This document shows, piece by piece, positions 38,525-59,461 of a stretch of 64,000 nt of DNA. Made by a program: the position numbers and the translations under genes. Origin of the DNA: Fimbriiglobus ruber (GTDB lineage: Bacteria; Planctomycetota; Planctomycetia; Gemmatales; Gemmataceae). Numbering within the stretch: position 1 is the first letter of the stretch; each line of letters opens with the position of its first letter. Below the pieces are notes generated by a model. It did no database searches. It had not been told where the DNA came from and saw only the letters and a program-made list of their open reading frames with translations. The stretch is from assembly GCF_002197845.1 (NCBI RefSeq), contig NZ_NIDE01000020.1:171460-235459 (forward strand), given 5' to 3'.

Positions 38525-38535
38525 CGGCCACCGGC

Positions 38536-40152: not shown

Positions 40153-40178
40153 ATCCTACCCGCTCGCGTTGCCTGAGT
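40153..40178 (-). promoter_or_regulatory. TCAGGCAACG promoter, 40.1-kb gene
   Basis: ACTCAGGCAACG, 8 bases, TAGGAT; diverges from a plus-strand copy 19 bases away. Confidence 0.7.
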
Positions 40179-40196
40179 GATTTCGGGAGCCGCACG

Positions 40197-40222
40197 AGTC
40201 AGGCAACGGGAGGCGGTAGAGT
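40197..40222 (+). promoter_or_regulatory. TCAGGCAACG promoter, plus-strand island
   Basis: AGTCAGGCAACG, 8 bases, TAGAGT; transcription should begin near 40229 and cover six overlapping genes to 42348. Confidence 0.7.
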
Positions 40223-41620: not shown

Positions 41621-42348
41621 CCGAGAGGGACGCCCTGCTGCGGGCGGTACTGGAGAACCCAGACGACGACTTGCCGCGTCTGGTGATGGCGGACTGGCTG
41701 GAAGAACACGGCCAAGAGAGCGAGGCGGTGAAAATTAGATATGGCGTGGCCAATCCGCATGAAACAGAGGGGAAATATTTGGCCCAAGCCATGTCGTTCG
41801 CATCTATTCGTCGCGGCTTCATCGAACAAGTTGCGTGCCCGTGCGAAGTGTTTATGGCCAAGGCGGGGGAGTGGTTCGGAGTGCAGCCAATTACGCGGGT
41901 GGTACTAAGCGACAAGCGGCCACATCTTCCGCACGTCGGGAGACCGGGCGAGACAAGGCATCTGGACTACAGCCCCTGGAAAGCTTTCTATTGGAACTCA
42001 CCCTACCACTGGAGCGAGCGGTTCATGGACTGGCGAGGCGATAATTCGGTCCCCCATGTCCTGCCCGCACAATTGCTTTCTCGGTTCCCTCCGGAATACG
42101 TAAAAGCTGTATACGAACAAGAAAACGGCCAGCGGGGTATGCACCGCCGCGGCTACGAATTCCCTGCACACAAAACGATAACGTCGTTGCACTGGGATAA
42201 CCAAATTTCATACCGACTTATCTACAGTCCACAGAGTTTTAATTTGTCCTTTGACCCCGAGCGATACTCCGAGATTTGCCTGTCCGCTGCCTGCGTCTCC
42301 TACGGCCGCACCCTCGCCGGATTGTCCCCGTACACGCCGGGAGTTTAG
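41617..42348 (+). CDS. TIGR02996-domain protein, last gene of the plus island
   Basis: 243 residues. The domain spans residues 1-45 with DDLPRLVMADWLEEHGQESE. The rest includes RRGFIEQVACPCEVFMAKAG, the standard RGF(V/I)E strand after this domain, then an aromatic region. Its TAG stop overlaps the stop of the large terminase on the other strand at 42345-42348, so the two transcripts collide without a terminator. Function unknown, host-derived type. Confidence 0.74.
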   Translation: MTERDALLRAVLENPDDDLPRLVMADWLEEHGQESEAVKIRYGVANPHETEGKYLAQAMSFASIRRGFIEQVACPCEVFMAKAGEWFGVQPITRVVLSDKRPHLPHVGRPGETRHLDYSPWKAFYWNSPYHWSERFMDWRGDNSVPHVLPAQLLSRFPPEYVKAVYEQENGQRGMHRRGYEFPAHKTITSLHWDNQISYRLIYSPQSFNLSFDPERYSEICLSAACVSYGRTLAGLSPYTPGV

Positions 42349-43994
42349 CGGCCCCCGCCCGCCACGGCGACGACGAGGCCGCCGCTCCTGCCCTCGTAGT
42401 ACGCCAAGTTCATCGCGTCCATTCCATCTGGGGATCGGCCAATTTTCTTCTTGGTGTCATCTTTCGGCTCGACGCTTCGCCGGCCCTTTGAGTCGGGCCA
42501 CCAGATCGGCGCCAACGCCTGCGATTCGAGACGAGCCACGACCCCCGACTTCCGGGCGTTCAACGCGGCGAGACTTAGCCGCCCACTTTTCGCCCGCTCG
42601 ACCGTCGAGAACCACAGCTCGTGCCTCACCTTCTCGTACTTATCAGAATCCTTAGCCGTCTCGGAGCTGTTAACCGGAATCACGTTGTATTTATCGGCCC
42701 GGAGGATGCTGACAACGCCGCCCCCGCACCCGGTATCATCGACCTTCATCTTGATCTGCTTTGCTGTGACCGCTGGTAGCGTCTTCGGTCTATCCTTGTT
42801 AGCTAATGCCGCTAATTCGGCCACCACATCCTTCAGCCGTGTGGCCACGCGGACTTCATCCCACCCATTCACAGCCTCGTGGTCCAAGCTCACGTTACCC
42901 CACCGGGAATGCGTCTCGGTCCAGTCGTCGCCGAAGCGGGCCACGTCGCAACCCAACTCCGGAAACTCGTTCATCCGGTGCGGAGACCGATCATCATTTT
43001 TTACCGCCATCGACCACAACGCCTCGGACCATACCCCGTAAGTTCCGGCCGAGGGTCGCCGGCCGAGAACCCTGGCTTCGCCCAGTGGCCCGGGTCGCCA
43101 CCACTGTCCGCTGCCGGGCGGGAATTCAATGTCCGTCGCCGCATGAGAGTCCGCCGCGATTCGTTCGAACCAATCTCCCAGCCACGTCCTGACCTGTTCG
43201 ACAGACACCGCGTTCGGGATCGGTACGGGCAGCGGTAACTCGCCCCGTGCGATCCGCCCCTCGTTCTCCAGGCCGACGGCTATGTTCGGGTGGCTGAGGC
43301 TACTGACCGTGAACACCTGCCACTTACGAAGCCCGTCAGCGCCCACCGCTCGCTCTTCGATGAAACTCTGACTGGTCGTCGTCGTGGGGTTCAGAATCGC
43401 GAAGAAAGCGTGGTCGCCGTTGGGGTGGAACATCGTCTCCGCCGTCTGCCAGTAGTTCGCACTGACGCCCTCGGCCTCATCGAATACGAACAACATCCGG
43501 GCGCGGTGCCGCCCCTGGAAACTCTCACCTTTGCTGGCCGTGTACCCTTTGGCGTAGTGGTCGTCGCCCGTGCGCATCTCGGGCGCCGCGGGACCGATGA
43601 AGTCGAACGGGAGAGGTAGTTTCGCACGCTGCCGTTGCAGCCTCACTTCAGTCCAAAGGAGATCCACCACGTCCCGCTTTGTGGGCGCCGTGGTAATGGC
43701 CACCCCGGGCTTCCGGGTGTCGTACCACCAGTTGACGAGCCACGCCGCAAGAAACGTCTTTCCGATCGAATGGCCCGACTTCACGAGCACTCGGTACGGT
43801 GGGCAGAGAATGGCCGGTGCGATTTGGGATTGATCTGGCGTGGGTAGAATACCAAGCACGTCACGCGCGTAACCGAGAGGATCATTCAAGTAGGCAGAGA
43901 AATCCCGATCGATGCTGGCTGAATCGTCACCCATCTCTTCTTCGATCTGACGGGCGAGGCGGTCGATGGCGTTGCTCGTTGCGAACGACTTCAC
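42345..43994 (-). CDS. terL: Terminase large subunit
   Basis: 549 residues from ATG 43994. Packaging ATPase and nuclease: Walker A SGHSIGKTF at residues 73-81, motif AITTAPTKRDV, Walker B MLFVFDEAEGVS near 165-176, coupling motif FAILNPTTTT. The nuclease half begins FPELGCDVARFGDDWTETHS near residue 345, with Asp in the usual place of the RNase H-like fold, and ends with PDGMDAMNLAYYEG. Its start overlaps the small-subunit stop by four bases. It cuts and packs genome DNA into the prohead. Confidence 0.9.
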   Translation of the reverse strand: MKSFATSNAIDRLARQIEEEMGDDSASIDRDFSAYLNDPLGYARDVLGILPTPDQSQIAPAILCPPYRVLVKSGHSIGKTFLAAWLVNWWYDTRKPGVAITTAPTKRDVVDLLWTEVRLQRQRAKLPLPFDFIGPAAPEMRTGDDHYAKGYTASKGESFQGRHRARMLFVFDEAEGVSANYWQTAETMFHPNGDHAFFAILNPTTTTSQSFIEERAVGADGLRKWQVFTVSSLSHPNIAVGLENEGRIARGELPLPVPIPNAVSVEQVRTWLGDWFERIAADSHAATDIEFPPGSGQWWRPGPLGEARVLGRRPSAGTYGVWSEALWSMAVKNDDRSPHRMNEFPELGCDVARFGDDWTETHSRWGNVSLDHEAVNGWDEVRVATRLKDVVAELAALANKDRPKTLPAVTAKQIKMKVDDTGCGGGVVSILRADKYNVIPVNSSETAKDSDKYEKVRHELWFSTVERAKSGRLSLAALNARKSGVVARLESQALAPIWWPDSKGRRSVEPKDDTKKKIGRSPDGMDAMNLAYYEGRSGGLVVAVAGGGR

Positions 43995-44515
43995 TTCTTG
44001 CCCGCCCGCTTCGCCGTGAGCTCCGCCAGTTTCTCCGATAATTCTTTCACCTTGTCCGCCATGCCCAGTAACCCGACGAGTTCGACCCGCTTCTCAACAC
44101 AGTAGCCCACGATGCGAAGAAATTCGGCCGACCCGTCCCGCCCAGCTTTCTTCACCTTCCGGCTAATCGGTGTGCCGGGCAGAGGCGGGGCGTTGTCACC
44201 TGCCACAGCCGGAACATCTTCAACGTCAATCGTCACCGCATCAGCCTGGCTCCGCTCCCACGCCCGCCACGCCTCTGCCTCGACGCGGTCCAGTTTCGCC
44301 ATCTCTTGGGCCACTCGCCGCCCGTAAGCAGTCCGGGCTTCCTTCACCCACTCCGCGCGGATCGCCTTCAGGTCTTCGCTGATGACCGACTGGGTAACCC
44401 CGACATCGGGCGAGTTGGCAATGTCCCATTGGGTATGCCCGGTCAGATACAACCGAGCCACGATCGCTCGTCGGGCGGTAATTGCAGTGTCGACGGCTGT
44501 GGAGCGGCGGCTCAC
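43991..44515 (-). CDS. terS: Terminase small subunit
   Basis: 174 residues from GTG 44515 (AAGG ten bases upstream; frame open to 44560). N-terminal helix-turn-helix: ITARRAIVARLYLTGHTQWD and GVTQSVISEDLKAIRAEWVK. A central helix (KLDRVEAEAWRAWERSQAD) and C-terminal coiled coil (KVKELSEKLAELTAKRAG) fit the ring-forming fold of small terminases, which recognise the packaging site. Directly upstream of and overlapping the large subunit. Confidence 0.75.
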   Translation of the reverse strand: MSRRSTAVDTAITARRAIVARLYLTGHTQWDIANSPDVGVTQSVISEDLKAIRAEWVKEARTAYGRRVAQEMAKLDRVEAEAWRAWERSQADAVTIDVEDVPAVAGDNAPPLPGTPISRKVKKAGRDGSAEFLRIVGYCVEKRVELVGLLGMADKVKELSEKLAELTAKRAGKK

Positions 44516-44528
44516 TCGGTATTGCCTT

Positions 44529-44603
44529 AAACGTATTGGGCCACGGCCGCTCCGCCACACAGGGTTACTGAGCGGGAAACGGCGGGTTGAGCGGTGGCCA
44601 TGA
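44529..44603 (-). CDS. Possible 24-aa leader ORF before the terminase
   Basis: ATG 44603 lies at the end of a GTTCCC box and encodes 24 Ala/Val-rich residues ending 14 bases before the small terminase GTG. It may be a leader peptide or chance. Confidence 0.25.
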
Positions 44604-47010: not shown

Positions 47011-47036
47011 ATCATAGCGGGGCGCGTTGCCTGACT
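47011..47036 (-). promoter_or_regulatory. TCAGGCAACG promoter, 46.98-kb gene
   Basis: AGTCAGGCAACG, 8 bases, TATGAT; the rightmost copy in the window. Confidence 0.7.
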
Positions 47037-47038
47037 CG

Positions 47039-47803
47039 CTACGCCGCACCCGTCACGCCGCCCACGCGGGCCGCCAACCGAAGCACCTCGGACTCGTCCA
47101 CCTTCATCGCCTTGGCCTTGGCCTCAATCGCCTTAAACTCCTCTGGATACAGCCGGACGACCACCGTCTTAAATGCCGATGCGGGGGACGTGGGCGGCGG
47201 GGAGTTTTGGTTAACCGTAGCCCAGATCGCCTTGCACACGGCGGCCAGCGGCGCTTCGGAGTTACTGATCGCCACCACCCCCTTGTTGGGGTCGACCTTG
47301 ACTGTCCGGTTGGGCTTCCGGTCCGCCATCGGTTCCGGCTTGCCGGGCTGCTTCGGCTCCCCGTGGATGACCGCCTTCTGAGCCTCCGGGGTCCGGATGG
47401 TGCTCTTGTTGAATACCTGGATGATCTCCCGCAGGCTCAATTCGTCGAGGTCCACGTCGCGGGAGAACTCGTCGCCCCCGACGAACACCGCGACCGCCTT
47501 CGTCTTGGCGAGCCGCTTCTGGTCCTTCATGTTCATCTCGGACATCGCCGTCAGGAGCCGATACCGCCCCGCGTATTGGGCCACCAGCCCGGGGTGCAGG
47601 CGGCCGGTCCCAACCATCGGGAGCCACTTGGCGAACGAGCACTTGAATTTCGCCATGGGCACGCCGCGGTCTTCCAGTTCGCACCAGATGGCGGCCAACC
47701 GCGAGATCGACAGGGCGGACATTCTCATCAGCCGATCGAATTCATCGACCAGTTGGCCCGTCGTCATTTGGGCCACGTTCGCCTTAGTGGTCTCGTCGTT
47801 CAT
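47039..47803 (-). CDS. Probable DNA-binding protein with ribbon-helix-helix C-terminus
   Basis: 254 residues from ATG 47803 with AAGGAG six bases upstream. The last 45 residues, KTVVVRLYPEEFKAIEAKAK and AMKVDESEVLRLAARV, have the beta strand plus two helices of an RHH dimer. The N-terminal 150 residues (SRLAAIWCELEDRGVPMAKF and KFKCSFAKWLPMV) resemble DUF3102-like replication or partition proteins. An acidic loop divides the parts. Regulator or partition-like protein. Confidence 0.55.
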   Translation of the reverse strand: MNDETTKANVAQMTTGQLVDEFDRLMRMSALSISRLAAIWCELEDRGVPMAKFKCSFAKWLPMVGTGRLHPGLVAQYAGRYRLLTAMSEMNMKDQKRLAKTKAVAVFVGGDEFSRDVDLDELSLREIIQVFNKSTIRTPEAQKAVIHGEPKQPGKPEPMADRKPNRTVKVDPNKGVVAISNSEAPLAAVCKAIWATVNQNSPPPTSPASAFKTVVVRLYPEEFKAIEAKAKAMKVDESEVLRLAARVGGVTGAA

Positions 47804-48486
47804 TTGCAGTCTCCTTGGAGGGAATCGAGGGCTTGGGTCAGTTTGGAACGGATGTCGTGAAATTGCATGCCGACGTCCAATTGCTTTGCATTCACGTACC
47901 TTGCGCGACCGCGGCTCCGCTCGCGTTTTTGCTTGCAATTCGCCGAGCATTTAGACTGCGTGTAGTGCCCTATGAATCGTTTGCCGCACACGCTACACAG
48001 TCTGCTGTAGCCACAAGACAAACAAGAAGGCTGTCGGTCGCGGCGCGATGCCGACAACAAATGTTTAGCGGTCCTTACGACTCGTTTTCCGCAGTCGCAC
48101 AAGCATTGCCATTTTTGGCTAGATGTTAAATTTTTATAGCCGTAAGTGCTCACGGGTTGCAAAACCGTGAGCAACCCAAATCGATGCGACATCAGATCTC
48201 GCCACTGCCTTCGCAGAGCACTTGCAGTCAACGCAACCTTTTTGGCCGCGCACGGTCGACATGAACAAGCATGACCGTAAGACGAATACAACAAATATTG
48301 CCGGGTTACAGTTCTGTACTTCCCGCACTCACACTTGCACACCCAAACACGATCTTTAGGAGATATTCGTTGGTGGCCACAAATGCGATCCACGCCCAAC
48401 ACCGTCAGCTTCCCGTACTCCCTCCCCGACAGTTCCCCCTTCCTGTACGGCGGCGCCTTCTCCCGTTTGGCCTTCACTTCTCCCAT
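47800..48486 (-). CDS. Tandem phage zinc-domain protein
   Basis: 228 residues from ATG 48486 (GAGG upstream). Two copies of a phage domain: GREYGKLTVLGVDR with VWVCKCECGKYRTVTR, and HRFGLLTVLQPVS with WQCLCDCGKRVVRTAKHL. Each ends in a Cys pair. A third zinc site, LCSVCGKRFIGHYTQSKCS, follows. Single copies of the CxCxCGK domain are common in phages, often beside AP2-like proteins as here. Nucleic-acid binding is likely. Confidence 0.64.
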   Translation of the reverse strand: MGEVKAKREKAPPYRKGELSGREYGKLTVLGVDRICGHQRISPKDRVWVCKCECGKYRTVTRQYLLYSSYGHACSCRPCAAKKVALTASALRRQWRDLMSHRFGLLTVLQPVSTYGYKNLTSSQKWQCLCDCGKRVVRTAKHLLSASRRDRQPSCLSCGYSRLCSVCGKRFIGHYTQSKCSANCKQKRERSRGRARYVNAKQLDVGMQFHDIRSKLTQALDSLQGDCK

Positions 48487-49091: not shown

Positions 49092-49784
49092 TTAGTCGAC
49101 GAGTTTCCGCAATAACGGCCTCAGCCGCTCCGTCGCCAGGTTACACAGTTGCCGGACCCGTTCCCGGCTGATCCCCTCAATCACCCCGATTTGACGCAGG
49201 GTCAATTGGTCGTACCCGAGCAGCCCGTACCAGTGGCAGAAAATCCGCCGCTGCCGGATCGGGACTGCCAGCAGGGCCTGCTGGATGTCTCGACGGAGGT
49301 GGGTCCGCCACACCTCCCGCTCTCCGTCTTCCTTGGACGACACCCCGAGCGAGTCCCAGCCGGCCGTGGTCCCGCCGTCCAAGTCGCGGACCGCGTCCAC
49401 GGGGATGAGGGAGTCGGGCTCGCCGGCCCTCCGCATGTTCGTTCGCTGGCACTTCGCCCGAATGTGTGCGGCCGCATAGGTCACAAACTTGACCCCGCGC
49501 CGCGGGTCGAACTTCGTCGCCGCGATCGTCGCACCCAAGTAGGCCGCGAGTTTACACTCCTCAAAGTGATCGTCTCCACGGGCAACGATCTGATTCCACG
49601 TCCCCCGGTAGGCCGTCGAGAGTACGAGGATCGGCTCCGGGTACAGGTCGATAAACTCTTTGAGAATCCGCTGCCCCGACTCCCGGAGTACGGGCTGCCA
49701 TTCCCCCCGCTTCTCGTCCCACACGAGGCGGGCGAGCGGGCCGATTTTGGGCTTGAGCGGGCGGTCGAATAGTGTCGGCTGCAT
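49092..49784 (-). CDS. Phage-encoded sigma-70-family factor
   Basis: 230 residues from ATG 49784. Region 2: ECKLAAYLGATIAATKFDPR and GVKFVTYAAAHIRAKCQRTN, the core-binding and -10-recognition helices. Region 4: LTLRQIGVIEGISRERVRQL and CNLATERLRPLLRKL, a -35-type helix-turn-helix. Region 3 is short and region 1.1 is absent. The first 70 residues are not recognised. In phages such factors direct host RNA polymerase to a class of phage promoters. The 16 TCAGGCAACG promoters are obvious candidate targets; this link is inference. Confidence 0.82.
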   Translation of the reverse strand: MQPTLFDRPLKPKIGPLARLVWDEKRGEWQPVLRESGQRILKEFIDLYPEPILVLSTAYRGTWNQIVARGDDHFEECKLAAYLGATIAATKFDPRRGVKFVTYAAAHIRAKCQRTNMRRAGEPDSLIPVDAVRDLDGGTTAGWDSLGVSSKEDGEREVWRTHLRRDIQQALLAVPIRQRRIFCHWYGLLGYDQLTLRQIGVIEGISRERVRQLCNLATERLRPLLRKLVD

Positions 49785-49847: not shown

Positions 49848-50666
49848 TCACGGCGCAACCCGCCCGTTGAGTACGAAGGCGGCGTGTGTGATCGGCCAGC
49901 CCTGCTTGAACATCTCTTCGCAGGCCAAGGCACCGAGTTCGATCTCGTGGAGTGGGTAACTGCGGAACGTCGCCTCTTCGCTGCCGACTCGCAACGATAG
50001 GAACGACATCAGCGACCGCGGGTTGCACGTCACCCAGCAGGATGAGTAGATGCCGACCGGCAGACAGTCACGGGCCAAGCCGGGGTCCAATTGCCTGGAC
50101 AATTGACGCTCATACCGAGCGTATTCGTCCTTGTAGCCTTGCTTCATATCGCTAACGATCTCGTCGTATTTCTGGTCGGCCGCCGCTTCAGCAATATCTC
50201 CGAAATGTTCCATGTCGGTCACCAAAGCCATCGACTGATCCAGGGTTAGGAACTTCGGTCGACCGGGTTTCCAGCCATCCACTTTTACCATTGGCCTGTC
50301 TCTCGCTGGAATGTAGAAGACCGGGTCGAGTTGCTTATACCTTGCACTCTCTTCATTGTACGAAAATCCGATCCTGTGCCGGTGCCACTCCCTCCACACG
50401 AAGATCGGGGCCTTCACGCAGAAGGTCATTGCCGAATGCTCGAACGGTGTACCGTGCCGGTGTTTGATCAGGTAGTTGATCACCCCGCGTACGTCGTCCG
50501 GGTTCTCGACGGCTCGCCTGAGTCCTTGCTGGGCACTGGTGGACACCCATGCGGCCGACGCGAGCATGGCGTCAGAGCCCATCGATTGAATCAGGGTGAC
50601 ATCGACCGATGATTTAAATTCCACGTTAAACCTCACGAACAGTTTGGATTGTTGGGACGGGGTCAT
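49848..50666 (-). CDS. thyX: Flavin-dependent thymidylate synthase
   Basis: 272 residues from ATG 50666 (GAGG upstream). Makes dTMP from dUMP with methylene-tetrahydrofolate and FAD. Signature at residues 96-110: RHRIGFSYNEESARY, with eight residues between RHR and SxR where the textbook motif has seven. HGTPFEHSAMTFCVKAPIFV provides the usual dimer strand. C-terminal FRSYPLHEIELGALACEEMF is also typical. It is part of a nucleotide-metabolism group with dCTP deaminase. Length is normal for the family. Confidence 0.9.
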   Translation of the reverse strand: MTPSQQSKLFVRFNVEFKSSVDVTLIQSMGSDAMLASAAWVSTSAQQGLRRAVENPDDVRGVINYLIKHRHGTPFEHSAMTFCVKAPIFVWREWHRHRIGFSYNEESARYKQLDPVFYIPARDRPMVKVDGWKPGRPKFLTLDQSMALVTDMEHFGDIAEAAADQKYDEIVSDMKQGYKDEYARYERQLSRQLDPGLARDCLPVGIYSSCWVTCNPRSLMSFLSLRVGSEEATFRSYPLHEIELGALACEEMFKQGWPITHAAFVLNGRVAP

Positions 50667-50995
50667 ATGCGGCGAGCCTCCGCCGCCGGCGGCTTGTTGA
50701 ACCCGTGCCGCCCGTACCTGTGCATCGTCGACCGGCCCCCGTACTTCGGCCCCGCCAACTCCTCGTCCGCCGGCCGCGGGACGTTCTCCATCACCTTTTC
50801 CAGAGGCACTTTGTACAAGCAACAGAGGGTAAGGATCTCGCAGACTTTGAACTGAATCTCGCCGGCCTCTCTCCGGTAAAGCTCGTTCGATCCGAGGTGT
50901 AGCAGTTTGCACACCTCGTCCTGCGTGTACCCGGCGTTCTCGCGGGCGACCGCGATGTTGGCCGCGATCTGGGGCATCATGCGGCGAATGAACAC
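50663..50995 (-). CDS. XRE-type regulator in the nucleotide operon
   Basis: 110 residues from GTG 50995 with AAGGGA seven bases upstream. Helix-turn-helix: NIAVARENAGYTQDEVCKLL and GSNELYRREAGEIQFKVCEI. The C-terminal 30 residues are polar. It lies between dcd and thyX and overlaps thyX by four bases, so it may control this operon or be an unrelated early regulator. Confidence 0.66.
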   Translation of the reverse strand: MFIRRMMPQIAANIAVARENAGYTQDEVCKLLHLGSNELYRREAGEIQFKVCEILTLCCLYKVPLEKVMENVPRPADEELAGPKYGGRSTMHRYGRHGFNKPPAAEARRI

Positions 50996-51008
50996 CGGGA
51001 GTCCCTTT

Positions 51009-51701
51009 TTACTCGGCACCGGCCACCCCCTCCACAATGGGTAACGTCAACCCCATTTGCCCCTGATATTTCCCACCCTTATCCGCATAACTCACCCGGC
51101 ACTCCGCCTCGCCCTTGAGGAACAGCATCTGGGCGATCCCCTCGCCGGCGTAGATCTTGGCCGGCAGCGGGGTCGTGTTGCTGATCTCGATCGTCACCCG
51201 GCCGCGCCATTCGGGTTCAATGGGCGTAGTATTGATTATGATGCCACAACGTGCGTACGTGCTTCGTCCGACGCAGATGGCGAGCACGTCCCGCGGCATC
51301 TCGATCCACTCGACGGTCTCGGCGAGGGCGAAGGAATTGGGCGGGATGAGGACGTGATCCGGCCTGTCCGAGACAGGGCAGACCGCGTCAGCCTTTTCTT
51401 TCGTTTGGTAACACCGCGCGCACCCCTGACCGCTTTGGTTTGGAGACTTGATCCACATCTGCCAGAATCTGTGTTCGCCGCTCGGCGTCAGGTCCACATC
51501 CACGAACGCCTTCGCATCAAAGCTCTTGGGATCTACCACCCCGCGATGGGCGTTGGTAAAGATCTTGAACTTGTACCCGGCCCGCACGTCCAATCCATAG
51601 GACGAGAGCCCCCAGCTAATCCGCCCGGGGGTCTTGTCCCAGGTCGGGGGCGGGTCGATTTTGACCCTCGCCGCGATCATCCAGTCGGGTAAGACGCCCA
51701 T
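51009..51701 (-). CDS. dcd: dCTP deaminase
   Basis: 230 residues from ATG 51701 with GGAGGG ten bases upstream. [16 protein letters not shown], then [40 protein letters not shown] and [20 protein letters not shown] are the trimer-core motifs of the dCTP deaminase or dUTPase fold, with the catalytic Glu in ...VTIEISN. An insertion of some 30 residues with [20 protein letters not shown] and three Cys is not usual. It supplies dUMP or dUTP for ThyX. Dcd versus bifunctional form cannot be separated by eye. Confidence 0.85.
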
Positions 51702-51702
51702 C

Positions 51703-51843
51703 TCAGTTGTTCCCTCCAATGCTCACCAGCCACGCACACAGCCGGTAGGTTCCGGCGACCATAATCGCCATGAGACACAAATAAAACACGGCCACGATGC
51801 ACCCCGTAGCAACGTCGCCTTGGTCGTTAGGCTTATCCGCCAC
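51703..51843 (-). CDS. 46-aa single-TM protein
   Basis: GTG 51843 with GGAGG eight bases upstream; the stop overlaps the dcd leader by two bases. One membrane helix ([19 protein letters not shown]) with a polar N-terminus. It lies within an operon of enzymes, so its role as a membrane anchor or lysis factor is open. Confidence 0.52.
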
Positions 51844-52072
51844 GCCCGTCCTCCGGGGTAAAAGGAAGAACTACGCAGCACTTGCCCCGAAATTCTTCTC
51901 GCTCGGAACGGGGCGGCTCTGCCCCGTTCAGCCGCCCCGCCATCTCCCGGTATGAGTTCATGCACACCCGGCACAAGTCCCACATGCTCGCTGTGTTCGG
52001 GCACGCCCCGTTCTGGCACCGCTTGGGCTTCCGTTTCTTTGAGGTGCGGTCGGCGGCTTTAGTCTTGGGCAT
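51833..52072 (-). CDS. Small zinc-binding protein
   Basis: 79 residues from ATG 52072, GAGG upstream. A basic leader (KTKAADRTSKKRKPKRC) is followed by RCQNGACPNTASMWDLCRVC, a compact four- or five-Cys site, and a helix. Overlaps the methyltransferase 3' end by 14 bases and the next gene by 11, so translation is coupled. Confidence 0.55.
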   Translation of the reverse strand: MPKTKAADRTSKKRKPKRCQNGACPNTASMWDLCRVCMNSYREMAGRLNGAEPPRSEREEFRGKCCVVLPFTPEDGRGG

Positions 52073-53027
52073 CGGTCGGCACCTCGTCGAACAGGGAGGG
52101 GGCGGCCGGGGTCGCAATCGCCTCGACCTTCGCCCCCGTCACCCGCTTGTAACTATTCCACCCGCTCTCCACGTCCCGCAGTCGGTTCCGGGCAATCTCG
52201 ACCTGACTCTCGCGGATGTCGCATCCGATGAAATTCCGCCCATGAATAATGGCGGCATGGGCTGTTGTTCCGCTCCCCGTGAAACAGTCGGCGACCGTGC
52301 CCCCGGGCGGGCAGCAGGACAGGACGAACCGCTCGACCAGTTCCAAGGGGTAGGGAGCTTCGTTATCGTGGGCCGCGTCGTGGCCCATTTTGCCGCCGCC
52401 GACAACGCAGTCGACGATGTCGCCGTGTTCGTAGCGGGCGAGTATCTTGGTGACCTCTTCGGCCGTGTAGGTGCGATTGATAATGATGCCGGGGTTCGCC
52501 TTCACAGGTGGTTGGTAAGCGTTGCCGTTCTGAATGTCCCCGTTTTTCGCCCCGCAGGTAGCTCGGCCGATAGGAGCCACGACATGCGAAGGTCTGTGGC
52601 CATCGAGGGACACTGCTTTGGTTCCCGGCGCCTTCGACCCGCGTCGCGTTTTTGCCCCCGTCTTGCCCCATTGATTGACCCGCGATCCGCTGCTCACCCG
52701 ATGGCTCATTTCTCCGCCCGGTCCCCACTTCGGGGTATGCCCACACGCCGTGTTGTCGCTCCACGGCAACCGCCCCGGGCGAGCGACGCAGATGATCGGC
52801 TCGGAGTCCCCACGGAACCAGTCTGGGCCACCACTACCGGGGATACCAACACGCCGGTAGATACACGGTTTCCGCAACGTGAACCCCAGACGGATCAGGT
52901 CCGCCATAAGCAGATACGGTGTTGCGGAGTAGCTGTAATCTTCCGTTCGCCCCTCACACACGATCGCAATCAACCCCGTCACCTTGGGGACGCGGCCTGG
53001 ATGATCGTGACCATCCAGTCGACCCAC
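52059..53027 (-). CDS. DNA methyltransferase, C-terminal part (frame -1)
   Basis: Up to 322 residues. The first residues before PKVTGLIAIVCEG are a shadow of the N-terminal frame; the real part begins near 52994. Motif I lies late, PPGGTVADCFTGSGTTAHAA, and IHGRNFIGCDIRESQVEIAR follows, the arrangement of beta-class N6-adenine or N4-cytosine methyltransferases (PF01555), with SAM bound by FTGSGTT. The catalytic PPY motif is in the other frame at 53.1 kb. A -1 shift at GTCCCCAAG would restore one protein of about 390 residues. Confidence 0.72.
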   Translation of the reverse strand: MGRLDGHDHPGRVPKVTGLIAIVCEGRTEDYSYSATPYLLMADLIRLGFTLRKPCIYRRVGIPGSGGPDWFRGDSEPIICVARPGRLPWSDNTACGHTPKWGPGGEMSHRVSSGSRVNQWGKTGAKTRRGSKAPGTKAVSLDGHRPSHVVAPIGRATCGAKNGDIQNGNAYQPPVKANPGIIINRTYTAEEVTKILARYEHGDIVDCVVGGGKMGHDAAHDNEAPYPLELVERFVLSCCPPGGTVADCFTGSGTTAHAAIIHGRNFIGCDIRESQVEIARNRLRDVESGWNSYKRVTGAKVEAIATPAAPSLFDEVPTDAQD

Positions 53028-53221
53028 GCCTGACCCGTCAGGTTGAACCCGATCCCGTATGACCTTTGGGCTTCGTAAGGCGGGGAACCCATGAACAGAT
53101 CGACGCTGTCATTGGGCTGGCGGTTCCACCAGTCGATCGCATCGCCCTGTTCCACCGCCCACGTCCCGCCCATCACCCCACCCCCTTCGTCAGCCGCCGC
53201 CCGCAGTTCTTCATCCGCCAT
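52979..53221 (-). CDS. DNA methyltransferase, N-terminal part
   Basis: 80 residues from ATG 53221, GGGGG upstream, overlapping the previous stop. It carries VEQGDAIDWWNRQPNDSVDL and FMGSPPYEAQRSYG, where SPPYE is the catalytic (D/S)PPY motif IV. It ends at TGA 52979 just after TIIQAASPR, while the C-terminal frame continues smoothly with VTGLIAIVCEG. Either a mutation, an assembly error or ribosomal slippage divides the enzyme. Target sequence unknown. Confidence 0.7.
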   Translation of the reverse strand: MADEELRAAADEGGGVMGGTWAVEQGDAIDWWNRQPNDSVDLFMGSPPYEAQRSYGIGFNLTGQAWVDWMVTIIQAASPR

Positions 53222-53642
53222 TGGTCGTTACCCCCAGAGCCGCCATGAGATTCCGAAAGTGCCCCCGCGTTTTCGGCCACAGGCGATCCGGTAGCCTTTG
53301 GTCATCCACTCGCCAGTAATTGCTCACATCGTTGGGGTTGTCGCCGGCCGGATACACCACAACGGAAATACTGCCCCGCCGCAGTATGGCATTGTCCTCG
53401 CCGTGAGGCGCAAAGCCCTGTTGGATGAGCCACGTCTCCGTCACGGGCTCGTCCGCGTCCTCCGTCGGCAACAGGCCCAGCACCGCGCGGGCCACACCCA
53501 TCGCGTCGTCGCGAATCTGGTTCGCCGGCTCCGGCTCCAGGCTTTCGTCAAAGGGCGACGGTTCGTCCTCGTGGAACCACTCCATGAGAATCCGTTCGGC
53601 CGCCGCCCGCAGTTGGTCCGCCGCCGGTGTCTCGCTGCTCAT
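53211..53642 (-). CDS. Hypothetical 143-aa protein
   Basis: ATG 53642. Acidic helical start (DQLRAAAERILMEWFHEDE) and a more structured end (VTETWLIQQGFAPHGEDNAI, ISVVVYPAGDNPNDVSNYWR). This WLxxxGF...I...G.I.V pattern is shared by many small phage proteins of no known role. Overlaps the methyltransferase gene by 11 bases. Confidence 0.52.
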   Translation of the reverse strand: MSSETPAADQLRAAAERILMEWFHEDEPSPFDESLEPEPANQIRDDAMGVARAVLGLLPTEDADEPVTETWLIQQGFAPHGEDNAILRRGSISVVVYPAGDNPNDVSNYWRVDDQRLPDRLWPKTRGHFRNLMAALGVTTNGG

Positions 53643-53643
53643 G

Positions 53644-54099
53644 TCAGGTGCCCTCCGGGGTGTCGTTAGTGGGTGCCGGTCGCTGCGGCACGTAAGCCGT
53701 CCGCGAAAAACAATCGTGGTGCATCACCCCTCGCTCCGACCGGAACCACTCGAACCACCGCGGACGGGGCTCGTCCCAATGCAGGCCGACGGGCGTTTCC
53801 TTGCCGATCCCCCTGCCACACTTTTGGCAGCGGGAAAACAGACGTCGCCGCAGAGTTTGAAGTGGGTGGATCTGGAGCCGCCAGTGCCAGAAGTGGTAGC
53901 GGGGATGCTTCCACCATGCCCGCGGCCGCGGGTCTTGCCGGTCCTCGGCCTTCCCCTTGTTGAACCAGTCGCACGAGTCGTCGCTCCCGTCCCTCTCCGG
54001 GTCGACGTGCCAGACCGTTACCAGGGCCGGACGGTAGCCGTGGATGGAGCGCACGAACGGGTTCTTGATTTCGAACGCTACTGTCATTGGGTCATGCAT
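53644..54099 (-). CDS. Phage zinc protein with WHW motif
   Basis: 151 residues from ATG 54099 with AAGGAG six bases upstream. VWHVDPERDGSDDSCDWF, YHFWHWRLQIHPLQTLRRRL then SRCQKCGRGIGKETPVGLHW and VMHHDCFSRTAYV. The HFWHW...P...RR...C.CG order matches a phage protein family often found in actinophages and others, function unknown; zinc binding is likely. Confidence 0.58.
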   Translation of the reverse strand: MHDPMTVAFEIKNPFVRSIHGYRPALVTVWHVDPERDGSDDSCDWFNKGKAEDRQDPRPRAWWKHPRYHFWHWRLQIHPLQTLRRRLFSRCQKCGRGIGKETPVGLHWDEPRPRWFEWFRSERGVMHHDCFSRTAYVPQRPAPTNDTPEGT

Positions 54100-54176
54100 T
54101 GGATGCTCCTTGTTTCCTCTCCGCCGCCCGACCCAGACACTCCGCCTGGGCCACGATCCGAAATCGCCCAGATCGC

Positions 54177-54566
54177 TCAACCGTTGGCCCACGCGATCAC
54201 GTCCGCCACTGAATGAAACACCGGGATGCCACGACCCATCGCCTCTGCCGTCTCCAAATCGGCCCCCGTCGACAGTCCAGGCAACCGGAGAACCGCGTCA
54301 GACACGGCCACCCACGGCAGATCAACCCCCATCCAATCCTCATGCGTCGTGTCGCCCGGTAACACGCTCGCGATCGACGCCACAACGCCCTCCGGGTGAC
54401 GGCTGCTAATGGCTTCATACGTCGACCCGTGGTACACGCTCCAGTGCGGACACCACGGGGCCAACCCCGCACGCAGGAGGGCGGCAAACGCCGCGTCTGC
54501 CTGTCGGATGTTGTGGGCCAGACAACCCTTGCTAATGGGGCCAGCTATGTAGACTCGTTTTTTCAT
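54177..54566 (-). CDS. DUF4406-like protein (deoxyribosyltransferase-like fold)
   Basis: 129 residues from ATG 54566 with GAGGG eight bases upstream. KKRVYIAGPISKG at the start, CLAHNIRQADAAFAALLRAG and LPWVAVSDAVLRLPGLSTGA with later GIPVFHSVADVIAW fit the DUF4406 or nucleoside 2-deoxyribosyltransferase-like fold: the YIAGP loop binds nucleotide and ...DAVLRLPG..GAxxE is the conserved second site. A nucleotide-salvage or modification role is plausible, not proven. Confidence 0.68.
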   Translation of the reverse strand: MKKRVYIAGPISKGCLAHNIRQADAAFAALLRAGLAPWCPHWSVYHGSTYEAISSRHPEGVVASIASVLPGDTTHEDWMGVDLPWVAVSDAVLRLPGLSTGADLETAEAMGRGIPVFHSVADVIAWANG

Positions 54567-54578
54567 CGTTCACCCTCG

Positions 54579-54785
54579 TTAAGGTTTCGCCCCGCACACA
54601 ATGCACTTCCCGCAATTCAGCGGCTCCGGGTGCGGGCAGTCCCGCCGCAGGAGCGCGAGATCGTCGCGCAGCGTTTCCATCCGGTTCTCAATCTGCATCG
54701 TCGCCGCCTGCCGGGCGGCGAACTCGTTCCACATCTCCGCCGCCCGCTTGTCGTCGTTCCCGCACCGGTGGCGGATGTGGGCCAT
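54579..54785 (-). CDS. Small protein with C-terminal CxxC, copy 1
   Basis: 68 residues from ATG 54785 (GAGGG five bases upstream; ATG 54806 is the alternative). A helical body (KRAAEMWNEFAARQAATMQI) ends in RDCPHPEPLNCGKCIVCGAK, a C-x-HP...CxxC zinc site. The next gene has the same closing pattern, so the two are probably paralogs. Confidence 0.52.
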   Translation of the reverse strand: MAHIRHRCGNDDKRAAEMWNEFAARQAATMQIENRMETLRDDLALLRRDCPHPEPLNCGKCIVCGAKP

Positions 54786-54825
54786 GATGCCCTCGGTCGC
54801 TCGCATGTAAGTTGTCTCGTTCGTG

Positions 54826-55122
54826 TTAGATAGTCGCCCCACACACCAAACACTCGTCCCAACTATCCGAGCCGCCCGCCGGGTCCGCATGCCACTTCGT
54901 CGTCGGGTGCCGGCAGTCGCGATGTACGGCCGCCAGCTCCGCGTCCATCGCCGTAATCGCGAGCCTGTGAGCCCGCTCCGCAGCGGCCTTCCTGTCGCGA
55001 ATCTCAGCCACCTTCCGCGCCGTGCACTCCAGGTTGTGCAGGTAGCCCGCCAACTGGACGTCCGACTGATCCGGGTGGTTTCGCCCATGGTGGTGGGCGA
55101 TGAGTTCGGGGGTAATCTTCAT
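54826..55122 (-). CDS. Small protein with C-terminal CxxC, copy 2
   Basis: 98 residues from ATG 55122 with GGAGG ten bases upstream. ELIAHHHGRNHPDQSDVQLA, a coiled helix LECTARKVAEIRDRKAAAER, then DCRHPTTKW and DECLVCGATI. The DC-x-HP...CxVCGA ending parallels the 54579 protein. Overlaps the upstream gene by four bases. Function unknown. Confidence 0.52.
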   Translation of the reverse strand: MKITPELIAHHHGRNHPDQSDVQLAGYLHNLECTARKVAEIRDRKAAAERAHRLAITAMDAELAAVHRDCRHPTTKWHADPAGGSDSWDECLVCGATI

Positions 55123-55592
55123 GTGGCCTGCCTCCGTTTGGATTCCAACACCGCCACCAGACTCGCGGCCGCCGTCCCGTCCGCCAGCGTCTTCGCTGTC
55201 GCTCTGACCAACGTCCAGCCGAGCACGGCCGCCGCGTTGTACTTGGCCATGTCCTCGTCGTACCCGTTCCCGATCGCGTGCCGACTCATCAACAGCCGCC
55301 GCGGGTGCCGGCACTTCTTGCACGGGAGGGGTACCCAAATTCTTCCTTCCCGCTCAAACGCCGTCATTTGCTCGGGCCAGCACAGGTCGAACCGCCATTC
55401 CCGCCCCATCGCCTCTTTCGCGAACCGATGCTCGCGGGTCGGCTCCGGGAACCCCGCCGCCCGCACCGCCGCCAGCAACGGCCCCAGGTCGTCAACTGCC
55501 GGCAGGTTGGTCTTGGCCCCGGCCACGATCGCCGCGGGGTAGTTGGACATGGCCTGGAGTTGTTCCAGGGTCATGCGGACGCGGCGGGTCAA
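55119..55592 (-). CDS. Endonuclease-like protein (VSR/PD-(D/E)XK type)
   Basis: 157 residues from TTG 55592, which overlaps the previous stop (TTGA) and has GGAGG eight bases upstream; ATG 55574 is the alternative but lacks a site. Core: EHRFAKEAMGREWRFDLCWP, then EQMTAFEREGRIWV and GYDEDMAKYNAAAVLGWTLV. The WRFDLxWP...E...G, then ...K.N.A...GW...R order is the very-short-patch-repair-like nuclease fold that phages use for DNA processing. The metal residues are Asp in RFD and Glu in AFE. Confidence 0.6.
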   Translation of the reverse strand: MTRRVRMTLEQLQAMSNYPAAIVAGAKTNLPAVDDLGPLLAAVRAAGFPEPTREHRFAKEAMGREWRFDLCWPEQMTAFEREGRIWVPLPCKKCRHPRRLLMSRHAIGNGYDEDMAKYNAAAVLGWTLVRATAKTLADGTAAASLVAVLESKRRQAT

Positions 55593-55939
55593 GATGTCGC
55601 CTCCGTAGCCCTGATCGCCGCCCGGCAAATCGCCTCCGGGAACCGGTCCCTGAGAACCACCAACACGTCCGGCCACGCGGCTATCATCTGGCCGTCACTG
55701 AAAGTCGCCTGCCCTTGGATGGCTTGCAGGTACGCGTGCCGGCGAGAGAGGATCCACCCGCACGCCACCTGATGGACCTTCCACGCCAACGCGATCTCCG
55801 TCGAGTACGCCGGTACGTCCATCGTCATCCATTCGTCCCGCGCCGGGTCCGGCTGCCAGATCGCCACCCCGTGGGCGTTGATCGCGCCGCCCATGATGCG
55901 GGTGTGGACCGCCGCGTCCAATTCACGAAGACTGCTCAT
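55589..55939 (-). CDS. Phage ABA-sandwich domain protein
   Basis: 116 residues from ATG 55939, ATGA overlap with the gene before. LRELDAAVHTRIMGG, then VPAYSTEIALAWKVHQVACG, and RDRFPEAICRAAIRATEA: the helix, PAYSTD-like strand and A(I/L)C(R/K)AAL(R/K)A ending are characteristic of Phage_ABA_S (DUF2591-like) proteins. Members are small and uncharacterised. Confidence 0.66.
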   Translation of the reverse strand: MSSLRELDAAVHTRIMGGAINAHGVAIWQPDPARDEWMTMDVPAYSTEIALAWKVHQVACGWILSRRHAYLQAIQGQATFSDGQMIAAWPDVLVVLRDRFPEAICRAAIRATEATS

Positions 55940-56190
55940 GCCCATATCCCCCGCTTGACCCCCACCCGCGCCCACGCCGCCTGAACCTTCGCCCAATCGA
56001 CCACGGCCGCCGTCCTCACCGCCGCCCGGCACAACATGTCAACGCCGTGGTCGGAGACATCGGGGTTACCGACCGCTTGCATGATCACGTCCTCTGTGTC
56101 GCGGATGTACTGCTCCGGGTCGTGCGTCAGGGTACCAACGAAGCCGGCTGGCAGGAGGGTTCGGAATCGAGCGGGTTGCGTCTCGTTCAC
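55936..56190 (-). CDS. Small hypothetical protein
   Basis: 84 residues from GTG 56190 with GGAGGGG upstream; start overlaps the previous TGA. LPAGFVGTLTHDPEQYIRDT, then VDMLCRAAVRTAAVVDWAKV form mostly helix. Tightly packed in the overlapping run from 58521 to 49848. No family recognised. Confidence 0.5.
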   Translation of the reverse strand: MNETQPARFRTLLPAGFVGTLTHDPEQYIRDTEDVIMQAVGNPDVSDHGVDMLCRAAVRTAAVVDWAKVQAAWARVGVKRGIWA

Positions 56191-56795
56191 TTCGGCCCCT
56201 CCCCCGTGTACTCCCGCCCGTCCAACACCCGGCCCGAGACCGCGGCGCCCAACCGCGTCATGAGAATCGTCCCTTCGATCGGGTAACTCTCCGGCCGCTC
56301 GCAATCCGTACTCCACCGCCCGTCAATCGTCACCCACGCCATCCGGTCGCCCAGAATCTCCTCTTCCGTCAGGTCGCCGCAGCCGACTTCGGCATACGGT
56401 GCCCATTCGCCCCACGCGGCCATCTCGAAGCCGACCCCCGCCCCCTCGCAATCGTCGCGCAACTTCCGCACCCACGTAGGATGACAGGGCTGTGCGTCGG
56501 GGCCGGTCTCGCCCCGCACAATCACCGCGTCCAGGTTCCGCCCCGCAATCTTCAAAGGCCGGTCCGACGGGCACACACGGCACAACACCACCTCCCAGAG
56601 CGGGCTTTCCTCGTCGGGATCACGAGCTTGACCGCATTCTTCGCATCGCCACCAGCCCAGGTGGTAGGCCGCGAGCGACACTGGACCGCCCGCCCCCAAC
56701 ACCACTTCTACCTCCCGCCGCCCCTCCAGCCGGAGGAACGGTGGGATCAGTGCGTCGGCCTCGGCCTGGCTGCGGACGGTGATGCGGTGGGTCAC
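56187..56795 (-). CDS. DUF5131 (Gp37/68-like) C-terminal fragment
   Basis: 202 residues from GTG 56795 with GGGAGG upstream, overlapping the gene before. CEECGQARDPDEESPLWEVV, then LKIAGRNLDAVIVRGETGPD and CHPTWVRKLRDDCEGAGVGF are the late part of the DUF5131 family (the GGESG...HP.WVR..R..C...G..F pattern). AWGEWAPY and GRVLDGREY close it. Normal members have an N-terminal radical-SAM-like half that is absent here. Either shortened for a new use, or decaying. Confidence 0.62.
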   Translation of the reverse strand: MTHRITVRSQAEADALIPPFLRLEGRREVEVVLGAGGPVSLAAYHLGWWRCEECGQARDPDEESPLWEVVLCRVCPSDRPLKIAGRNLDAVIVRGETGPDAQPCHPTWVRKLRDDCEGAGVGFEMAAWGEWAPYAEVGCGDLTEEEILGDRMAWVTIDGRWSTDCERPESYPIEGTILMTRLGAAVSGRVLDGREYTGEGPK

Positions 56796-57020
56796 GCGAC
56801 AGCCTCCCAGAACAACCACGGCAACGACCCACCCACCACGTGCGGCCCCGCGTCCACCTCTTCCTTCCCTTTGGCCGCCGCCTCCGTGCCCCACAGGGAT
56901 ACCAGGGGCTTCCATTCCGCCCCGCCCATCGTACTTCATGTGTTGGGCGATCGGGCGGAAGTCCTTGCCGCCGATGCGGACCTGCCCGTTGCGGACGGTC
57001 CGGTAAACGCCGTGCTTCAT
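56792..57020 (-). pseudogene. Small gene with a one-base frameshift
   Basis: ATG 57020 opens with MKHGVYRTVRNGQVRIGGKD and HMKYDGR, and another frame gives AEWKPLVSLWGTEAA and GGSLPWLFWEAVA ending TGA 56792, in a GTGA overlap with the next gene. Removal of one G in the GGGCGGGGCGG stretch joins both into one of about 75 residues. I judge it frameshifted or a sequence error. From memory, similar small Gemmataceae proteins carry this SLWGTEAA phrase. Confidence 0.5.
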
Positions 57021-57176
57021 GGTCGCCCCTCCCCCTCATGTTCCCCTTGTGTCACGCCCCAGCCACCGCCCCGCGTCGAGCGGAAGAAGTGCCATAGTGC
57101 CTCAGTCGTCGTTCGATCGGTCCGTGGTGTAGAAGTTGTTCTCGTCGTTCGGGCACTGTTCCCGCATCATGACCAG

Positions 57177-57332
57177 TCATCGCCGGACCGACCGCCCCGA
57201 TGTCCCGTATACCTCAACCTGATGCTGGCACTGGCTGCACGTCACACAGATTCCATCCACGGTCCGGGGCTCACCATTCCACTCTCCTTCGCCTTCCAGG
57301 TCGCACTCCTCGACCTCGCACTTCACTCGCAT
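57177..57332 (-). CDS. Small zinc-ribbon protein with an in-frame TGA
   Basis: 51 residues from ATG 57332, overlapping the previous stop: KCEVEECDLEGEGEWNGEPR and GICVTCSQCQHQVEVYGTSG give CxxC pairs. After TGA 57177 the same frame stays open for 24 codons (LVMMREQCPNDENNFYTTDR and on) to TGA 57102, and this tail looks like a natural end of the protein. The TGA replaces what may have been Cys in RRC-L. Nonsense change, read-through, or a genuine short form are possible. Confidence 0.5.
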   Translation of the reverse strand: MRVKCEVEECDLEGEGEWNGEPRTVDGICVTCSQCQHQVEVYGTSGRSVRR

Positions 57333-57535
57333 GCCTTGACTCCTTCGTTAGCGTTGTCCTCTTTGAGTTTGGCGGACCGTCTCGAAAGGTAGTCCGTCAA
57401 GATCTTCAGCAGGTGAATCCGGTCGTCCTCCGTCACCGGGCCCTGGAATTCCACGCCAGACACGGAGATGGTCGCCAAGTGCAGCCCGTCGGCCTTGGCG
57501 CGGTCCTTCTGGGCTTTCGTGTATGTCACTGCCAT
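57323..57535 (-). CDS. Small hypothetical protein
   Basis: 70 residues from ATG 57535 with GGGAG five bases upstream. VTYTKAQKDRAKADGLHLAT, then DRIHLLKILTDYLSRRSAKL: strand and two helices. No Cys site. Overlaps both neighbours. Function unknown. Confidence 0.52.
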   Translation of the reverse strand: MAVTYTKAQKDRAKADGLHLATISVSGVEFQGPVTEDDRIHLLKILTDYLSRRSAKLKEDNANEGVKACE

Positions 57536-57795
57536 TAGTTGCTCCCGTTGGGTTCTTCGTTCAAACAGGCGGCCATCACAGGTTGCGATTCGCTGTCCGT
57601 GTCACCCCTGACGAACGCCGCTAGCCCCCTCCAGACTTCGTCCACCTTCATCAGCCGTTCGACTTCCCAGATCGCGGCCTGGTGGTCTGGGTCGACTGGA
57701 ATCGGTGGCGGTTCCGCGTGGATCGCGCCGCACCCGATCTGGTGGAACCGAAACCCCACCCTCATGGCTTCCGCGTGCAGTTCTCTCGGACTCAT
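57535..57795 (-). CDS. Small hypothetical protein
   Basis: 86 residues from ATG 57795 with AGGAGG. SPRELHAEAMRVGFRFHQIG then DHQAAIWEVERLMKVDEVWR are helices. Its ribosome site lies inside the end of the 58030 frame, which argues that the longer overlapping frame ends near here. Function unknown. Confidence 0.52.
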   Translation of the reverse strand: MSPRELHAEAMRVGFRFHQIGCGAIHAEPPPIPVDPDHQAAIWEVERLMKVDEVWRGLAAFVRGDTDSESQPVMAACLNEEPNGSN

Positions 57796-58030
57796 CGCTG
57801 TCGGCCTCCTGGTGTTTCCAGGATGGGCTTAATGCCCATCCGCAATAGACTCCCGGGACGATCACACCCCGGGTCTTTAGGGCTTCCACCGTCGCGGCCA
57901 GATACTCGGCCGTCTGCCGGAATCCGCCATCGCACACTTCGTACATCAACCACTTGCCAGATCCGCCGCAGAGTGATCCCCCGCGGCGCATGGCCTCGAC
58001 CACTTCCATCTGCGGCTCGCTCAGTTTCAT
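57602..58030 (-). CDS. Small winged-helix-like protein, C-terminus doubtful
   Basis: ATG 58030, ATGA overlap with the gene before. The first 70 residues are protein-like: LSEPQMEVVEAMRRGGSLCG, WLMYEVCDGGFRQTAEYLAA, VEALKTRGVIVPG, the layout of a small winged helix with a Cys-containing hairpin. After SPSWKHQEADSDE the frame runs 190 bases into the next gene with unnatural Arg/Pro/Gly composition, and a one-base slip would stop it beside the next ATG. The real end may be near 57796-57830. Confidence 0.45.
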   Translation of the reverse strand: MKLSEPQMEVVEAMRRGGSLCGGSGKWLMYEVCDGGFRQTAEYLAATVEALKTRGVIVPGVYCGWALSPSWKHQEADSDESERTARGSHEGGVSVPPDRVRRDPRGTATDSSRPRPPGRDLGSRTADEGGRSLEGASGVRQG

Positions 58031-58521
58031 GTCAGTCGCTCGATCATCTCGAACAGCCCCGGTCCTTTGGTGGACTTGATCTCCGGCAGGGCTGCGGCCA
58101 AGTTCTCGGGCGTGTTCGGGGCGTAGCCCACGGCACACCGGCAATCGAGGCACCGGACGGACAGGTGAACGGTTCCGTCCCTGAACGTCTGCTTTCTCAT
58201 CTCTGTCTGGTCGCCCTCCCGGTTGTTGCACTTGGTGCAGACCAATCCATGACCGGCCGTGACCACCGCAGGCATAGCTACCGGCGCCTCGACCATCACC
58301 AGTCCCTTCGGCCGTTTGCTCCGGTAGGGGCACACCGCCATCGGGCAGACGGTGCCCACGTCGGCCGCCGTTACGTACCCACCGATGAACACTGCGGCCC
58401 GGCAGGTGCCGCACTGCGCCTCAACCACGACGACGGACGGCGGTGTTTTCGGCCGCGGCGGAGGGGTCCGCCGCTTCGGAGGTACGGGCTTGGGCGGGGG
58501 TGTCGTCGGTCGGGTTGACAT
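58027..58521 (-). CDS. Zinc-ribbon protein with Pro-rich leader
   Basis: 164 residues from ATG 58521 with GGAGGAA upstream. A Pro/Lys N-terminal tail (PPPKPVPPKRRTPPPRPKTP) leads to AQCGTCRAAVFIGG, VCPMAVCPYRSKRPKG, LVCTKCNNREGD and VRCLDCRCAVGY: four Cys pairs, two zinc ribbons. First gene after a strong terminator, so it likely starts its own operon that runs to the sigma factor. Confidence 0.6.
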   Translation of the reverse strand: MSTRPTTPPPKPVPPKRRTPPPRPKTPPSVVVVEAQCGTCRAAVFIGGYVTAADVGTVCPMAVCPYRSKRPKGLVMVEAPVAMPAVVTAGHGLVCTKCNNREGDQTEMRKQTFRDGTVHLSVRCLDCRCAVGYAPNTPENLAAALPEIKSTKGPGLFEMIERLT

Positions 58522-58536
58522 TTCGTTCCTCCGCTC

Positions 58537-58565
58537 AAAAAAGGCAAGGCTTTCTTAGCCTTGCC
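58537..58565 (-). terminator. Intrinsic terminator after the DUF669-like gene
   Basis: On the minus strand GGCAAGGCT, AAGAA, AGCCTTGCC and then TTTTTT: a perfect 9-bp stem with a U-run. The clearest Rho-independent terminator in the window. Confidence 0.85.
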
Positions 58566-58609
58566 GCCATCAACATTTACGTCAAAAAAAATACACCGGC
58601 GGGTCCGAC

Positions 58610-59323: not shown

Positions 59324-59363
59324 ATTCATCTCCGTTAACGTGTTACGCAACTCTCGCACAGCA

Positions 59364-59387: not shown

Positions 59388-59461
59388 GTATCGTTGGATT
59401 CCGATTCCTCCCCCGCTTCTCAACCCCTTAGCATGCGTTGGGACGGGAATTCGGAACAGCA

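Follow-up and report, generated by a model that had tools for sequence, protein, structure and literature searches.

Phage SPO1, a lytic Bacillus phage, uses gp28 and gp33/34 as sequential phage sigma factors at promoters with normal -35/-10 spacing, and in the P2/P4 pair the satellite uses regulators of its helper. In known holoenzymes, region 4 of sigma contacts about -38 to -30, where it is positioned by the beta flap, also when region 3 is missing. The sigma factor of phage 7-11, gp47, has a region 4 and its promoters read GTAAtg-16-aCTA (PMC8948821); motif search could not predict them, and experimental mapping was needed in the 2022 study (PMC8948821). The phiEco32 gp36 promoter consists of the single element tAATGTAtA (PMC8948821). 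The T4 activator MotA acts from a box placed 12 ± 1 bp away from the -10 element (PMC2988021; structure, PMC6755090), and extended -10 elements are common in T4 middle promoters (PMC2988021). A keyword search of the open literature returned nothing on transcription control in planctomycete phages, a subject that appears little studied.

Here, we report a promoter class and its candidate readers in a temperate siphophage integrated in the chromosome of a probable Gemmata-family planctomycete, as judged by gene content. The window, i.e., the whole stretch of DNA analysed, is 64,000 nucleotides long and corresponds to C20:171460-235459 within a 12.36-Mb assembly; negative numbers are window coordinates left of position 1. 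Almost all genes of the element are on the minus strand (Table 1). The early (replication) block holds no box, and the late block, with the large terminase, portal, major head, and tape-measure genes, holds every one. At the junction, sigma1 is succeeded by an AP2-like gene, a zinc-ribbon/HNH-like gene, and gene 47039-47803; the first late box (47025) comes next.

Table 1. Features of the element in window coordinates; for promoters, the box, its gap to the -10 (nt), and the -10 hexamer are given.
Feature	Position	Strand	Details
Early block without boxes	49848-61578 (about 47-62 kb)	-	Profile search and by-eye calls
Primase/helicase, early block	59462-61578	-	Profile search
SSB, early block	58610-59323	-	Profile search
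DNA methyltransferase, early block	52059-52982	-	Profile search
ORF, early block, presumably dCTP-deaminase-like	51009-51701	-	Recognised by eye
ORF, early block, presumably ThyX-like	49848-50666	-	Recognised by eye
sigma1, phage sigma-70-like protein, 230 aa	49092-49784	-	Region 2 (about 60-118), region 4 (about 165-226, helix SRERVRQL)
Protein with two AP2-like (beta-beta-beta-alpha) domains, 198 aa	48474-49070	-	Next gene, 21 bp past sigma1
Zinc-ribbon/HNH-like gene	47800-48486	-	Between AP2-like gene and gene 47039-47803
Promoter	47011-47037	-	Box 47025-47034, gap 8, TATGAT; first past sigma operon, toward terminase genes
Putative terminase small subunit	43991-44560	-	By position; PHROG match is a family labelled RNase E
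Terminase genes	42345-44560	-	Large subunit 42345-43994
Promoter	40196-40222	+	Box 40199-40208, gap 8, TAGAGT
Promoter	40153-40179	-	Box 40167-40176, gap 8, TAGGAT; divergent with 40196-40222
Promoter	38499-38525	-	Box 38513-38522, gap 8, TAAAGT
Portal protein, 1241 aa	30518-34243	-	C-terminal 2'-5' RNA ligase-like domain (PF13563, 5.8e-10)
Promoter	30493-30519	-	Box 30507-30516, gap 8, TAGACT; directly ahead of Clp_N-domain gene
Clp_N-domain protein	29376-30452		
Major head protein	20691-22154	-	Profile search
Promoter	19089-19115	-	Box 19103-19112, gap 8, TAGGAT
Promoter	18843-18869	-	Box 18857-18866, gap 8, TAGGAT
Promoter	18281-18307	-	Box 18295-18304, gap 8, TATGAT
Promoter	15923-15949	+	Box 15926-15935, gap 8, TAGGAT
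Promoter	15880-15905	-	Box 15893-15902, gap 7, TAGGAT; divergent with 15923-15949
Tail tape-measure protein	9682-11838	-	Profile search
Promoter	9610-9636	-	Box 9624-9633, gap 8, TACAAT
Promoter	6888-6914	-	Box 6902-6911, gap 8, TAGAGT
Promoter	5647-5673	-	Box 5661-5670, gap 8, TAGGAT
Promoter	5257-5283	-	Box 5271-5280, gap 8, TACAAT
Promoter	4029-4055	+	Box 4032-4041, gap 8, TACAAT; prefix TAC, the sole non-SAS prefix
Promoter	2740-2766	-	Box 2754-2763, gap 8, TAGGAT
sigma2, second phage sigma	-2991 to -2383 (C20:168469-169077, in L137)	-	Just off-window
Off-window promoters (two)	Boxes -8497 and -2315		-2315 ahead of sigma2
Box without -10	-3136 (C20:168314-168323)		Off-window, CAC prefix, inside predicted coding gene

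The box TCAGGCAACG occurs in 16 exact copies within the window and in no copy with one mismatch (chance expectation with up to one mismatch, 5.4 ± 2.4). Every one of these copies has TANN[ACG]T downstream at 7-8 nt, in agreement with the 16-member class described in an earlier note on this DNA. With the flanks included there are 19 boxes, from -8497 to 47034, and 18 of them are followed by TANN[ACG]T, 17 after 8 nt and one (15893) after 7, i.e., the gap described earlier as a fixed 8 bases has a single exception. A scan of gaps 0 to 25 in the 18 promoters found no TANN[ACG]T elsewhere; the background chance per site is 0.005, which gives P of about 1e-40 for 18 such elements among 19 boxes. 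Aligned on the -10, with the hexamer set as -12 to -7, the promoters read [CG]A[CG]-TCAGGCAACG-[CG]-N5-G-N-TANNNT (SAS-TCAGGCAACG-S-N5-G-N-TANNNT). Invariant in all 18 are A-32, T-30 to G-21, G-14 (the extended -10 position), T-12, A-11, and T-7. The box runs from -30 to -21 and lies within the normal promoter spacer, with the invariant CAGGCAACG at -29 to -21, and the -35 to -30 segment, the -35 site for a 17-bp spacer, reads N-Y-S-A-S-T. This site is partly TTGAC-like (A-32 in 18/18, C-31 in 12/18, G-33 in 9/18, T-34 in 8/18), with TTGACA matched at 2.7 of 6 bases on average.

The structural half of the element contains all 18 promoters, placed 30 to several hundred nt ahead of a gene start on the same strand; three are on the plus strand, two of these in divergent pairs (15893/15926 and 40167/40199). 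The element yielded no further repeated promoter class. We suggest that the TCAGGCAACG promoters serve as the late class of the phage, "late" being judged from position and content. One could instead take the box chiefly as an operator or an antiterminator-loading site, lambda Q-like, overlaid on ordinary promoters: the DNA site bound by Q lies within the late promoter (PMC6606751), and both box -3136 and a tandem pair in another prophage (C19, below) have no fixed -10. With 18 of 19 boxes locked to a -10, however, and with antitermination usually needing one or few such promoters, such a role is extremely unlikely. We rejected a single-subunit polymerase as box reader because the -10 is of the sigma type and we saw no gene for such an enzyme.

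As a source of recognition, sigma1 was examined at the level of sequence and predicted structure. It matches Pfam Sigma70_r4 at E=2.7e-8, which exceeds the curated cut-off, and Sigma70_r2 at E=0.0017, which does not; of the two sigma regions claimed for it earlier, region 4 thus stands and region 2 is weak. Region 3 was not detected by Pfam. PHROG_351 ("RNA polymerase sigma factor") matches at E=5.9e-15, and among PDB sequences RpoS matches the whole protein at 1.6e-12. The AlphaFold model has a mean pLDDT of 60, with about 77-88 in region 4; its best Foldseek match is RpoS (E=9e-6, probability 1.00), aligned over about the whole length with region 2 included, and all 50 Foldseek matches listed are sigma factors or sigma-containing complexes. 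By these comparisons and the model, the ORF is confirmed as a sigma-70-type protein with a clear region 4 and a weak region 2. The recognition helix SRERVRQ is of the canonical RERxRQ type, and two host sigmas have KERVRQ. Region 2 is divergent: A-H stands at what we take, from the E. coli sigma-70 reference, to be the position of the W433/W434 dyad, and the presumed core-binding QEGN stretch is not kept. Because these key residues for core binding and the -10 are changed, core binding by sigma1 is uncertain. Among viral contigs, a single-protein query gave no relatives of sigma1 and a profile query gave six, all distant.

The sigma1 gene ends the early block, just ahead of the structural half, and has no box ahead of it, the nearest one (47025) being downstream; its lack of a box had been stated earlier, as expected for an early product, and agrees with the present layout. 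Because sigma1 ends the early block and the 18 promoters are all in the structural half, a dedicated late sigma fits, and a link between sigma1 and the box promoters is, by position, the leading single hypothesis. Please note that phage 7-11 is a caution for assigning the box to a sigma factor, since its promoters were not predictable by motif search. In our proposal, the early operon would make sigma1 near its end, and sigma1 would take over the host core RNA polymerase, with region 2 reading the extended -10 (G-N-TANNNT) and the canonical region-4 helix reading the weak -35 (NYSAST, -35 to -30). A second phage DNA-binding protein would probably read CAGGCAACG in the spacer and hold the complex. 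Such a second reader is probable because the box sits outside the usual sigma contact, and it is the more likely reader of CAGGCAACG because the sigma1 helix is canonical and the -35 is separately conserved. We hold this explanation as a whole tentatively, its chances being somewhat short of even.

The earlier note had let sigma1 alone read the entire box, with region 4 shifted downstream in an altered region 3/4 geometry. The near-constant gap and the missing Pfam region 3 would suit this idea, but the canonical helix, the box position, and the separate NYSAST conservation at -35 speak against it. The beta flap normally sets region 4 at -35, and it is established that loss of region 3 causes no shift in ECF sigmas. 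Moreover, at least 10 invariant bases make a site larger than usual for region 4, and gp47 of phage 7-11 has a 16-bp spacer (PMC8948821). We regard the shifted arrangement as quite improbable. Of the earlier claim of a dedicated sigma, the positional part is supported and the direct reading by a shifted region 4 is not.

The best candidate for the second reader of CAGGCAACG would be the tandem-AP2 protein encoded next to sigma1. Its model contains beta-beta-beta-alpha twice, with pLDDT of about 90 in the domains, and the best VIA-align matches are the TEM1 AP2 (Z 6.1) and the WRINKLED1 tandem AP2 (Z 5.9, residues 10-135). The ERF1 AP2 is also among the structural matches, and those from the viral library are AP2/ERF and HNH-AP2 proteins. 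A Z of about 6 is modest by itself; that several AP2 entries ranked first supports an AP2 fold for the modeled protein, which has no Pfam AP2 match. Relatives in other genomes of the family occur in loci without boxes or nearby sigma1 relatives, so the protein is not tied to the box, and its role as reader is weakened by this, not removed.

DNA-binding candidates of this sort (the tandem AP2 and two XRE-type HTH proteins, at 50663 and 25391) would equally serve an analogue of MotA/AsiA, in which reading of the extended -10 falls to the host primary sigma, a phage activator on the box takes the place of the -35 contact, and sigma1 serves another set or role. The -10 and G-14 suit a housekeeping sigma, the combination of a long conserved box with a sigma-70 -10 downstream of it is that of MotA promoters, and the divergent region 2 of sigma1 points the same way. 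On the other hand, the box-to--10 gap is shorter than that of MotA, no MotA or AsiA homologue was seen among the proteins scanned (part of the ORFs), and sigma1 would need another target in an element with no other repeated promoter class. On balance this account is somewhat unlikely.

A second phage sigma, sigma2, which the earlier note had missed, lies behind the box promoter at -2315 (Sigma70_r4 E=3.8e-6; PHROG_351 2e-8) and shares 25% identity with sigma1 along its length. Its recognition helix, TQGRVDQ, is unlike that of sigma1 and the KERVRQ of the two host sigmas. Under our late-sigma proposal, sigma2 may run a later step or feedback. Its own box promoter, and a diverged helix that would suit a non-TTGACA site, could also mean that sigma2 reads the box and amplifies itself, sigma1 starting sigma2 or another set; yet a late-block gene would need another trigger, and the C19 homologue has no box array, which makes this very unlikely.

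That homologue (335457-336080; 36%, E 5e-25) belongs to a prophage with two integrases (C19:320000-359999; L140 + L141) and has a second sigma gene close by (336710-337498). The pair is just ahead of the terminase region, the terminase genes being those we take as such by eye. The same prophage has a tandem box pair at 329090/329059(-). In the G010 prophage the sigma gene is in the early region, and the scan of that prophage found no repeated box. The C2 locus (C2:896000-998802; L172-L177), with a terminase 71% and a tail-region protein 78% identical to those of the phage, has a sigma-like gene at L176:12617-13348. The comparable positions of early-placed sigma genes in other prophages of the host family support our reading of sigma1, and, judged by gene order, early/late-junction sigmas recur in phages of this family with differing sequences. 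The C2 locus also contains a dispersed palindromic intergenic repeat, CCGCCCCTCCGGGGCGGCCTAACGTAGACCCGGGCGGGAGCCCGGGGACACCGG, often in inverted pairs (local 28407, 36785, 93784); a repeated 8-mer, CCGCCCCT..., upstream of C2 genes was rejected as a promoter class, being a dispersed palindromic repeat.

Strict pattern scans gave 2 single hits in 2.9 million viral contigs and 12 in 84,980 genomes, and no second phage bearing the class emerged from them; loose scans gave single, chance-like hits only. Forty relative genomes gave one chance hit (G016, within host coding DNA), and TerL relatives (35-51% identity) had no repeated box. The class appears specific to this element, apart from two paralogous island-like loci in the same genome, also missed earlier, at C9:238816(-) and C9:335737(-) (L280, L282). 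Their class promoters are complete (gaps 8 and 7, G-14, TAGACT) and stand ahead of a 109-aa gene, nine homologues of which in other genomes have upstream regions without the box. The upstream 14-mer GTGCGATCTGCCGG is common to the C9 loci and phage promoter -8497, and in alignments of the C9 upstream regions promoter -8497 scored above all 500 shuffles and 6911 above 497; we take the C9 upstream sequence and promoter -8497 to be homologous. Encoded at these loci are a primase-like protein, with an NrS-1 pol-like domain, and a ParB/methyltransferase protein; the loci may be phage satellites borrowing phage machinery. It had been argued that the motif driving genes in phages lacking sigma1 would refute the link. 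No such phage was found, and the C9 loci, with no convincing sigma1 or sigma2 match, neither refute nor prove the link because sigma1 could act in trans. A further version, with bipartite recognition in which sigma1 reads -10/-35 and the tandem-AP2 protein reads the invariant box, the same promoters drive sigma2, and chromosomal islands have acquired them to sense the phage, we consider decidedly improbable.

In an unrelated phage contig, L245 (IMGVR_UViG_3300032722_000006), the stretch 7594-13873 includes a complete gene for a sigma factor (9935-10624). It also has five AGTGTAAC boxes that precede TANNNT by about 17 nt, and one of these boxes stands immediately before the sigma gene; with its normal spacing, this is a second candidate for a phage sigma and its promoters.

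The element offers 18 test promoters, two sigmas, and a DNA-binding candidate, to which the islands add two promoters of this class. The system could show whether a phage late switch can rely chiefly on the promoter spacer for recognition. As in P2/P4, island elements carry helper-type promoters, with the C9 islands as possible satellites here. As in SPO1, there is more than one sigma in one phage, but SPO1 is lytic and its spacing is normal, and here the box is in the spacer. With T4 middle promoters the class shares a phage box upstream of a sigma-70-type -10; it differs in that the MotA box tolerates change, in the gap (12 ± 1 in T4, 7-8 here), and in the presence of a phage sigma, with no MotA/AsiA seen among the proteins scanned. 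Like 7-11 gp47 and phiEco32 gp36, sigma1 would be a phage sigma made before the late genes and acting with phage-specific late promoters; unlike those two systems, this one has 18 copies of an invariant spacer box followed after 7-8 nt by a sigma-70-like extended -10.
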